Below the pieces are notes generated by a model that worked only from the letters and a program-made list of their open reading frames with translations, made no database searches and had not been told where the DNA came from. From positions 1-64,000 of the forward strand of contig NZ_NHOY01000037.1 in the NCBI RefSeq assembly GCF_002252755.1: 64,000 nt of DNA, given 5' to 3'. Position 1 is the first letter of the stretch, and each line of letters begins with the position of its first letter. The stretch comes from Halorubrum sp. Hd13 (lineage in GTDB: Archaea; Halobacteriota; Halobacteria; Halobacteriales; Haloferacaceae). Below, piece after piece: positions 17,787 through 20,908 of the stretch. The position numbers and the translations under genes are program-made.

Positions 17787-19268
17787 TCACTCCTCGTCGA
17801 TGCCCGCCAACTCCGACGCGTCGTCGACGACCTCCGGCGTCCCGCTCAGGATGCCGCGGAGCCCCGTCATCGGCTCGCCGACCGAGACGCCGTCCTCGGT
17901 GATCCGGAACTCGCGGATCGTCCGCTCGAAGTCGCTCGTCCGCTTCTTCAGGACGCCGATCGCCTTCCGCATCTCGCCTTGGACCTCCAAGTGCCGGAGG
18001 AAGACGATGTTGTCCGCGAGGTAGCTGATGTTCTCGACGGTCGCCTGAAACTGACCGGTGATGTTGCGCGTCTCGTCGATGAAGATGGCGGTCGCACCCA
18101 TGTTCTTGAGGTACCGCCCCAGAGCGTGCATCTGCTGGAGCATCATCCCTTCCTCGCCGCGGAGCGTGAGCCGGTACCCCGCGATGCCGTCGACCATCAC
18201 GATGTCCGCCCCGCGCTCCTCGACCTCCTCGCGGACCATCCGGGCGAACTCCTGTGGCGACCGTTCGAGGGCCTCCACCTCGTTCACCTGGAGCGTCCCC
18301 CGCTCGATCATCTCGTCGGCCGGGATGTCGACGGCGCGGGAGCGCGTGAGGAACGTCTCGCGGTTCTCCTCGAACAGGTAGATGACCGAGCGCTCGCCGC
18401 GCTCGGCGGCCTCCTTCATGAACTGCGTGCTCAGCGTCGTCTTCCCGACCCCGGTCGGCCCGCTGACGATGCTGACCGTGCCGCGTTCGAGCCCGCCGTG
18501 GAGCAGCTCGTCGACCCCCTCGATCCCCGAGGAGATCTGCTCGAAGTCGAAGTCGCCGTCGTGCTTCCCGGGCTGCAGCGCCGGGTATACCTCGATGCCG
18601 TGGTCGGTCACCCGGTAGGCGTGGTCGCCGTTCAGCGTCGACGACCCGCGGAACTTCGGCACCTCGATCGTCTTCCCGTACTCCTCCGTGCCCAGCCGGA
18701 TCGACCCGTCGGTGATGAACTCCAGGTCGTCGGTCGGCAGCGAGGGGGTGTTCTGGACCGTGAACGCCACGGTCGCGCCCTGGTCCTTCAGGAACCGCAT
18801 GAACCCGACCACCTGCTTGCGGAACTGGTAGTCGTCCGACAGCAGGAACCGGAGCTGGGTCAAGGGGTCGACGACGACGCGGTCGGGGTCGACCGCGGTG
18901 ACGCCGTCCACGATCTGCTCGGTGAGCGGCTCGCTCTCGACTTCCGACGGCGCGAACACCTCGTACGACTGGTCCTCGGTGAACACGTCGGCGCCCGGGC
19001 TCAGGTCGAGGAACTCGATCGCGTCCGTGTCGAAGCCGAGGGCCGCCGCGTTCGACTCGAGGTCGCGGACGTCCTCCTCCAAGTTGATGAACAGCGACGT
19101 CTCTCCCTCGTCGACGCCCCGCTGGAGGAAGTGAAGGCTGAGGATCGTCTTCCCGCTGCCCGCCTGACCCCGTATCATGTAGCTTCGATCCGGGATCAGT
19201 CCCCCGGACAGGATCTCGTCGAGGCCCGGGATGCCGGTCGACACGCGCTCGGGCAGTGACTCGGACAT
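17787..19268 (-). CDS. Two-domain KaiC-like ATPase
   Basis: This 493-residue protein has two RecA-type KaiC domains, residues about 5-235 and 243-480. The first has Walker A GQAGSGKT near residue 31 and the second GPTGVGKT near residue 268. Both have the KaiC opening STGIPGLDEILSGG or SGIEGVDELLHGG. In cyanobacteria KaiC is the clock ATPase. Haloarchaea lack KaiA and KaiB, and their KaiC-like proteins have been linked to daily rhythms or treated as signalling ATPases. It is divergent from a LOV photoreceptor kinase, with only 74 bases between the starts. The ATG at 19268 is chosen over an upstream Met because MSESLPERVSTGIPGLDE is the usual family start. Confidence 0.9.
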   Translation of the reverse strand: MSESLPERVSTGIPGLDEILSGGLIPDRSYMIRGQAGSGKTILSLHFLQRGVDEGETSLFINLEEDVRDLESNAAALGFDTDAIEFLDLSPGADVFTEDQSYEVFAPSEVESEPLTEQIVDGVTAVDPDRVVVDPLTQLRFLLSDDYQFRKQVVGFMRFLKDQGATVAFTVQNTPSLPTDDLEFITDGSIRLGTEEYGKTIEVPKFRGSSTLNGDHAYRVTDHGIEVYPALQPGKHDGDFDFEQISSGIEGVDELLHGGLERGTVSIVSGPTGVGKTTLSTQFMKEAAERGERSVIYLFEENRETFLTRSRAVDIPADEMIERGTLQVNEVEALERSPQEFARMVREEVEERGADIVMVDGIAGYRLTLRGEEGMMLQQMHALGRYLKNMGATAIFIDETRNITGQFQATVENISYLADNIVFLRHLEVQGEMRKAIGVLKKRTSDFERTIREFRITEDGVSVGEPMTGLRGILSGTPEVVDDASELAGIDEE

Positions 19269-19342
19269 ACCGATCCCTCCGCACGCGGGGTAGTTAATGA
19301 ATGGGTAACTCTTAGTGGCCGTGTACTCACCGTCCACGAGAG
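19269..19342. promoter_or_regulatory. Shared divergent promoter, KaiC-like gene and LOV kinase
   Basis: Only 74 bases separate the two start codons. The centre is AT-richer and contains GTTAATGAATGGGTAAC at about 19290-19306, whose ends GTTA and TAAC are inverted. Any regulator bound here would act on both genes. No TATA box is unambiguous. Confidence 0.45.
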
Positions 19343-20908
19343 ATGGACACGGGTCCAGAGGGGCTCGCCGACGGTGCGCCCTCCCGAGGCGGCGGCGTCG
19401 ACAAGCCCGCCGAGGAGGCCGCCGACAGCGGACCCGCGGACCGGACCGACGACGCCCCGAACGGAGGCGCGCCTGAGTCCGACCGGGACCCGCGAGTACT
19501 GCTTTTCATGCGGCCGGGACGCGACCGAGAGCTGGTGTCCGAGGCCCTGAGCGATCGGTTCCGGACCGACGCGACGACCGACGTGGAGTCGCTCGACTCG
19601 ACGTTCGACTGCTGCGTCTTCGACGCCCGCGAGTTCAACCGCGTCGCCGGGTCGATCCAGCGGCGGCGAGAGCTGGCCGCTCCCGTCTTCCTCCCGTTCG
19701 TCCTCCTCGTGAGCGACGGCGCGGGCGCCCCGGCTGAGAAGACGTGGGACTACGTCGACGACGTCATCCGGCTGCCGGTTCGGAAGCGGGCCCTCCGCAT
19801 CCGGGTCGGCAACCTCGTCGAGCGGCGTCGCACCTCGCTCCGGCTCGCGGCCCGGGAGCGGAAGCTCGAAGAGACCGTCGAGGACCTCCGACTGAAGGAG
19901 CGCGCGATGGACGAGGCGCCGGTCGGGATCACGATCGCCGACGTCGACGAGAGCGGCGACGGGGACAACCCGCTCGTGTACACGAACGACGAGTTCGAGG
20001 CGCTCACCGGCTACGGCACCGAGGTGTTCGGCTCGGACTGCCGGTTCCTTCAGGGCGAGGACACCGACCCGGAGACGACCGCGGCGATCCGAGAGGCGAT
20101 CGACGAGGAGCGGCCGGTCGGGGTCGACGTCCTGAACTACCGCCGCAACGGCCAGAAGTTCTGGAACCGACTCACGGTCGCTCCCATCCGCGACGAGGCG
20201 GGGACGGTCACCCACTACGTCGGGTTTCAGACGGACATCACCGACCGGAAGATCCGGGAGCGCCGGATGGAGGTGATGAACCGCGTGCTCAGCCACAACC
20301 TCCGGAACAAGATGAACCTCATCTCGGGGTACACGGAACTGCTGCGGCAGGCCGTCGACGACGACGAGGCGCTCGGTTCGCTGGAGGTGATCGACGAGAC
20401 GACGGACGACCTGATGGGGCTCGCCACCGCGGTCCAGAAGCTCGACCGGACGCTCTCGGGGCCCTCGACGGCCGGGACCGCCGTCGCGCTCCGCGATCGC
20501 CTGATCGAGGTGCGATCGAGGGTTCGAGACAGGTATCCCGAGGCGTCGGTGACCCTCTCGCTGCCGCCCGACGACCCGCTCGAAACGACGGTCTCCGGAC
20601 TGGTGACGGCGATCGAGGAGGGAATGGAGAACGCCGTCAAGCACAACGACGGTCGGAGCCCGTCGGTCGAAGTCGACGTCGAGTGGGAGTCGGGGGAGTG
20701 GCTCGCGATCGAGATCGCGGACGACGGTCCGGGCATCCCGGACCACGAGACGCGCGTGCTCGAACTCGGCGAGACGTCGCTGAACCACGCGGACCGGCTG
20801 GGGATCTGGCTGATCTACTGGGTCGTGGCCAAGGCCGGCGGGGAGTTCTCGGTCGACACGTCGAGCGAGGGGACCACGCTCCGGCTGGCCGTGCCCGCGC
20901 ACCCCTGA
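19343..20908 (+). CDS. LOV-domain sensor histidine kinase (blue-light candidate)
   Basis: This 521-residue soluble kinase has an N-terminal response-regulator-like segment (residues about 45-150), a short coiled coil, a PAS/LOV domain (about 188-300), a histidine phosphorylation helix and an ATPase domain (about 400-520). The LOV core GSDCRFLQGEDTDPETT matches the flavin-binding GxNCRFLQ motif, with the photo-reactive Cys at residue 233 and Asp in place of the usual Asn. The later NYRRNGQKFWNRLTVAP and GFQTDIT supply the other flavin-contact residues. His318 in RVLSHNLRNK is the likely phosphorylation site; IEIADDGPGIP is the ATP lid. It is divergent from the KaiC-like gene. Confidence 0.88.
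   Translation: MDTGPEGLADGAPSRGGGVDKPAEEAADSGPADRTDDAPNGGAPESDRDPRVLLFMRPGRDRELVSEALSDRFRTDATTDVESLDSTFDCCVFDAREFNRVAGSIQRRRELAAPVFLPFVLLVSDGAGAPAEKTWDYVDDVIRLPVRKRALRIRVGNLVERRRTSLRLAARERKLEETVEDLRLKERAMDEAPVGITIADVDESGDGDNPLVYTNDEFEALTGYGTEVFGSDCRFLQGEDTDPETTAAIREAIDEERPVGVDVLNYRRNGQKFWNRLTVAPIRDEAGTVTHYVGFQTDITDRKIRERRMEVMNRVLSHNLRNKMNLISGYTELLRQAVDDDEALGSLEVIDETTDDLMGLATAVQKLDRTLSGPSTAGTAVALRDRLIEVRSRVRDRYPEASVTLSLPPDDPLETTVSGLVTAIEEGMENAVKHNDGRSPSVEVDVEWESGEWLAIEIADDGPGIPDHETRVLELGETSLNHADRLGIWLIYWVVAKAGGEFSVDTSSEGTTLRLAVPAHP

Follow-up and report, generated by a model that had tools for sequence, protein, structure and literature searches.

The locus described here lies in a 64,000-nucleotide stretch of Halorubrum sp. 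Hd13 DNA (contig NZ_NHOY01000037.1; hereafter the window) and encodes two divergently transcribed partners. One is a KaiC-type double ATPase; the other, a soluble histidine kinase, has a pseudo-receiver (PsR) domain, a LOV domain and a kinase core. Among haloarchaea, KaiC genes of this type are almost never found without a PsR-bearing partner kinase, which argues that the two form a real, modular signaling pair. We consider it probable that the locus is a PsR-coupled KaiC-kinase module with light input. In this two-gene module, blue light would be expected to link the LOV flavin to Cys233 as an adduct and to alter autophosphorylation at His318, the N-terminal PsR would couple the kinase to a KaiC hexamer, and KaiC would act as a dedicated gate or amplifier of its partner kinase; flavin binding, hexamer formation, PsR-KaiC contact, the direction of control and the output are all predicted. 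The features on which this proposal is built are as follows.

17787..19268, minus strand: two-domain KaiC-like ATPase, 493 aa, ATG at 19268 (PF06745 matched twice, E = 1.1e-79; end-to-end alignment with a solved KaiC, E = 2e-60)
19146..19169, minus strand: Walker A motif of the first KaiC domain (GQAGSGKT), with the catalytic Glu pair EE at residues 64-65 (Lys in 113/113 sequences, second Glu in 112/113)
18438..18461, minus strand: Walker A motif of the second KaiC domain (GPTGVGKT), with a Glu pair at residues 300-301 (Lys in 113/113, the two Glu in 112/113 and 113/113)
18021..18041, minus strand: CII phosphosite region TVENISY, with the counterparts of T426 and S431 kept and T432 replaced by Tyr (T/S in 113/113, S in 112/113, Tyr in 103/113)
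19343..20908, plus strand: PsR-LOV-histidine kinase of 521 aa without evident transmembrane segments (Pfam PAS_9 and HATPase_c)
19493..19837, plus strand: PsR domain that has the acceptor Asp but lacks the acidic pair and the Lys (receiver-type strand-helix order in the structure model, pLDDT about 90; profile)
19898..20251, plus strand: LOV domain, residues about 186-303 (Pfam, PDB relatives, alignment)
20030..20053, plus strand: LOV motif GSDCRFLQ, residues 230-237, with Cys233 and with Asp232 replacing Asn (sequence, alignment)
20255..20458, plus strand: dimerization and phosphoacceptor helices with the invariant His318 (SHNLRNK; His codon 20294-20296)
20588..20899, plus strand: HATPase_c catalytic domain, with N box ENAVKHN, G1 DDGPGIP and G2 GIW (Pfam and alignment)

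The two genes are separated by 74 bp (19269-19342). The original prediction of a KaiC homologue beside a light-type (LOV) histidine kinase is borne out for both members, because the ATPase carries two PF06745 domains, the kinase has Pfam and PDB matches of LOV type, and the pairing is conserved. Among solved structures, the middle part of the kinase is most closely related to LOV proteins and to LOV-histidine kinases (best E = 4e-31), and the top structural matches of the kinase model are likewise LOV-kinases. The protein is predicted to be cytosolic, and H318, N319, L320 and N322 are invariant in the alignment of its orthologues.

The N-terminal ~115 residues of the kinase form the PsR, a domain that the original prediction did not mention. 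Pfam reported no receiver over this region in the window kinase or in the relatives checked; when a profile of the family was compared with the PDB, however, receivers were matched. The closest was receiver 2 of PleD (E = 8e-14), which is also a pseudo-receiver (PMC12632262) but belongs to a diguanylate cyclase rather than a kinase. Of the features of a canonical receiver, namely an acceptor Asp, an acidic pair and a conserved Lys, the first is found in most members of the family and the other two are absent. The window genome has exactly one PsR match, in the window kinase itself. In cyanobacteria, SasA is a kinase that reads out KaiC and carries a KaiB-like domain, whereas the window kinase has a receiver fold. 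A KaiB-like N terminus was considered for the window kinase and is excluded by the receiver strand-helix order of the model and by the receiver matches of the profile.

To relate PsR and KaiC genes across genomes, we located both in 119 Haloferacaceae genomes. The PsR profile gave 143 matches; it was built from KaiC neighbors, and this choice of sequences in part determines what counts as the family. Of the matches, 120 lay no more than 5 kb, and 110 no more than 1 kb, from a two-domain KaiC on our list, the median gap being 146 bp. Conversely, 110 of the 111 KaiCs had a PsR nearby, and KaiC was found in none of 20 named PsR-free genomes. Only two arrangements occurred among the 120 neighboring pairs, with the kinase either divergent (30) or downstream on the same strand (90). 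Of the PsR genes with no listed KaiC in the vicinity, 20 were inspected; eight of them had an intact but weaker KaiC beside them and five a kaiC remnant. The near-exclusive association extends to the order, where 243 of 391 genomes encode both KaiC and PsR, 131 encode neither, 13 encode only PsR and four only KaiC; because these genomes are related, a Fisher value for the table overstates its strength, and it is safer to argue from the recurrence of the association across many genera and in both gene orders.

The two proteins also diverge together. Across 99 cognate pairs, KaiC distances correlated with those of the PsR at 0.73, as compared with 0.44 for the ATPase end of the same kinase (difference 0.29, range 0.22-0.34), and in a thinned set of 46 the values were 0.54 and 0.22; these comparisons involve partly saturated PsR distances and phylogenetically non-independent genomes. 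The PsR is the best-conserved link between kinase and KaiC.

The original prediction hinged on the neighbors being kept together within Halorubrum, and they strongly are. The kinase has an orthologue in 45 of 52 genomes of the genus; an intact orthologous kaiC is adjacent and divergent in 39 of the 52, two more have a broken kaiC, and the seven genomes without the kinase lack the orthologous kaiC as well. By our own rough estimate from the 0-6 LOV motifs per genome (mostly 2-3), a LOV gene would adjoin a given gene by chance in ca. 0.2% of genomes, so the pairing is not a matter of chance. Beyond the genus, several genera have the divergent pair, and others have the two genes in tandem, with KaiC first and the kinase second. 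On a tree of 112 KaiC sequences, divergent order required two changes, partner class 26, and LOV versus other partner 11. Adjacency and shared loss would by themselves be compatible with neighbors that regulate the same process without touching each other, their co-inheritance reflecting linkage only. We regard this explanation as unlikely, given that the association persists in two gene orders, that the PsR tracks KaiC while the ATPase end of the same protein does so less, and that the PsR has been lost in frame where kaiC is a remnant.

That deletion is one case in a pattern of repeated kaiC decay. An open kinase stands beside a kaiC that is a remnant or gone in G004, G038, G044, G119, G123 and G127, with recognizable remnants in G004, G123, G127 and G044. 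In G044 (L180:8014-9105), the first 37 residues of the kinase are fused in frame to the LOV domain, such that the PsR alone is deleted and the LOV-kinase stays open; the adjoining kaiC is a C-terminal scrap of about 47 residues. In all, about ten PsR kinases have no kaiC or merely a scrap, indicating that the kinase has some function without KaiC. The converse, a KaiC without a PsR nearby, is rare (1/111 KaiCs in the 119 genomes; 4/391 genomes of the order). From this we infer that the PsR serves to contact KaiC and that, of the two proteins, KaiC is the more dependent on its partner. We did not count single frameshifts, whether in kaiC (G023, G042) or in the kinase beside an intact kaiC (G017 and G028; L183, L184), since they may be sequencing errors; those in the kinase may alternatively be early decay.

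These losses bear on whether the kinase reads out KaiC, in the manner of SasA, instead of driving it, with the LOV domain only tuning the kinase. Kinase partners of KaiC are the rule, and CikA provides a further precedent (PMC12632262); however, a pure read-out kinase should decay along with kaiC, whereas open kinases outlast it while only 1/111 KaiCs lacks a PsR neighbor. We therefore consider a read-out role quite unlikely.

What varies among relatives is the sensor. We sampled 100 KaiC genes, almost all from other genera. Cys-LOV kinases partnered 36 of them, Cys-less LOV kinases 13 and other kinases 17; for 19 the partner was recognized solely through its N-terminal domain, and for 15 no partner was detected. 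Two of the partners recognized solely in this way were checked, and both proved to be kinases with PAS sensors. The segment between PsR and kinase core has thus been swapped among Cys-LOV, Cys-less LOV, PAS and GAF domains, so the conserved core is KaiC plus a PsR kinase and not KaiC plus light. The Cys-less LOV-like domains (for example, GRNPRFLQ, GRSFRFLQ and GENMRLLQ) occur in partner kinases of several clades (L079, L085, L100, L102, L103, L106, L107, L113, L121, L128-L130, L173), where redox sensing is a possible role. Canonical receivers adjoin some KaiCs too, and several KaiC genes of other families (L161, L162, L164, L165, L175) are adjoined only by a short stand-alone receiver-like ORF, with no PsR kinase.

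A broader proposal, which we put forward tentatively and with less than even confidence, is that the PsR is a dedicated KaiC-docking domain and that KaiC with a PsR-sensor-kinase is an ancient prokaryotic device, free of KaiA and KaiB, into which sensors are plugged; the LOV version in Halorubrum would then amount to a KaiC switch, or a short timer, that is set by light. Bacteria, too, have two-domain KaiC relatives whose flanking kinases bear a PsR or a receiver-like N terminus, on an Acaryochloris plasmid (L243:3720-7556), on a Rhizobium plasmid (L242:6484-8607) and in an Anaerolineae bin (L232), and these pairs fit a wide distribution of such a device. Because the PsR is found almost only beside KaiC-like ATPases, it offers a concrete, testable handle on the widespread archaeal KaiC-like proteins and their relation to clocks, and in its LOV version the module would allow experiments to be triggered by light.

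The LOV assignment itself is upheld by the sequence, which has the reactive Cys of the GxNCRFLQ motif (Cys233), the remaining flavin-pocket residues R234, Q237, N265, N275 and Q296 (from sequence and alignments, mapped by eye onto AsLOV2), and LOV proteins as PDB relatives. The AlphaFold model of the full kinase is poor in this region (mean pLDDT 70), and we therefore base no structural claim about the LOV domain on it; LOV function of the window kinase is predicted. The replacement of Asn by Asp next to the Cys, noted in the original prediction, is real and genus-wide. Nearly all Halorubrum orthologues have Asp232, accompanied by a one-residue deletion just ahead of the motif, and this Asp is almost private to this KaiC-linked kinase, since the other LOV proteins of these genomes have Asn at that position, with two exceptions. 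A second LOV motif (mostly GVNCRFLQ; G000:C91:8283-8306), unlinked to the window KaiC, recurs in most genomes of the genus. A link between Asp232 and the presence of KaiC was considered and rejected, as G038 has Asn without KaiC, yet L221 has Asn with KaiC.

By analogy with AsLOV2, an effect of Asp232 on photocycle speed or flavin affinity is plausible: N449S made the photocycle about 60-fold faster and N449E slightly faster, whereas N449A, N449I, N449K and N449T failed to bind flavin (PMC10751770). The latter four mutants would suit a degenerate domain, in which Asp232 and the missing preceding residue abolish the photocycle and leave a redox sensor or a structural element. Cys-less LOV domains in related pairs point the same way, as such domains can signal via flavin reduction (PMC4682037). 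Nevertheless, the Cys and the rest of the flavin pocket are retained in nearly all Halorubrum orthologues, and N449E still binds flavin (PMC10751770), making a degenerate LOV domain improbable.

The original prediction also raised a daily module. In a light-entrained clock of this kind, KaiC would be the timer and the LOV kinase the input that resets it. Like circadian KaiC, the window protein has two KaiC domains with intact P-loops and catalytic Glu pairs, a light input adjoins it, and four cir genes of Haloferax volcanii show light-dependent rhythmic expression in light/dark cycles (PMC3941300). Against this, no KaiB was found above cut-off in 167 Haloferacaceae genomes; the Ser431-Thr432 phosphosite pair is reduced to its Ser, with Tyr at Thr432 in 103/113 sequences; the window KaiC falls far short of the NCBIfam circ_KaiC equivalog cut-off (179.9 vs 546.25 bits); the partner sensor is often Cys-less or not of light type; and kaiC has been lost repeatedly. 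A light-entrained daily clock is thus not supported, and we consider it very improbable.

Known histidine kinases offer close parallels to a light-input KaiC-kinase module. CikA and SasA of Synechococcus elongatus are also histidine kinases that work with KaiC, and CikA has a pseudo-receiver. In the window kinase, unlike CikA, the PsR is N-terminal and PleD-like by sequence, and KaiB was not found as a binding partner. The PsR of CikA binds KaiB, and KaiA carries a PsR as well (PMC12632262); a PsR-KaiC link would tie both to a wider set of KaiC partners. Bacterial LOV histidine kinases (EL346, Brucella LOV-HK and the YF1 chimera) also place LOV input before the kinase core, whereas the window kinase has a haloarchaeal core, an N-terminal PsR and a KaiC partner. 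The archaeal LOV kinases described by Losi and co-workers (PMC4844311) and ALovD-1, the first archaeal LOV characterized (PMC12202551), resemble the window kinase in their REC/PAS-LOV-kinase architecture, and the portions of these reports cited here describe neither a KaiC neighbor nor the Asp motif variant.

Among haloarchaea, cirC of H. volcanii likewise encodes a two-domain KaiC and reportedly adjoins a gene for a PAS-type sensor kinase; this neighbor, named fixL, was treated as an oxygen sensor, with no mention of LOV or PsR in the part of that report cited here (PMC3941300). The NCBIfam FixL model gave no match to the window kinase at E 0.001, and three haloarchaeal partner kinases scored 79-83 bits against a cut-off of 850. 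CirA and CirD, both single-domain members, have roles in motility and shape (PMC13286277), which together with the light-dependent cir expression indicates that haloarchaeal KaiC-like proteins matter. The cited part of a report on archaeal two-component systems (PMC5847659) describes KaiC-REC fusions in methanogens of the Methanosarcinaceae, with no KaiC-LOV pair; it also cites the Makarova 2017 proposal that KaiC-like ATPases sit as hubs in archaeal signaling pathways, a general idea in line with the pair described here. Some two-domain KaiC relatives in plasmid records (H1, H3, H11, H14-H16) are labeled gvpD or gas vesicle protein GvpD, apparently through loose similarity; the Pfam search at E 0.001 matched 25 families, none of them a GvpD model.

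Finally, we examined the intergenic region, which had been described as a shared 74-base promoter. The spacing is correct; a single shared promoter is not, since two back-to-back promoter-like elements are present.

19294..19301, strand not assigned: TATA-like element assigned to kaiC, with its ATG about 26-33 nt away (position kept in relatives as TATAAA, TATATA or TTAATGAA)
19311..19316, plus strand: CTTAGT, located 32 nt ahead of the kinase ATG and interpreted as the TATA/BRE region (most relatives share this distance; a few have 30-31 nt)

The spacing of the kaiC element suggests leaderless-type transcription. CTTAGT was also considered as a shared regulon box and rejected, as its extended motif occurs only once in the window genome; the one match is the kinase promoter site itself, and the motif is thus promoter-specific. 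Relatives such as L205, L215 and L216 have insertions between the two elements, and each element stays with its own gene.
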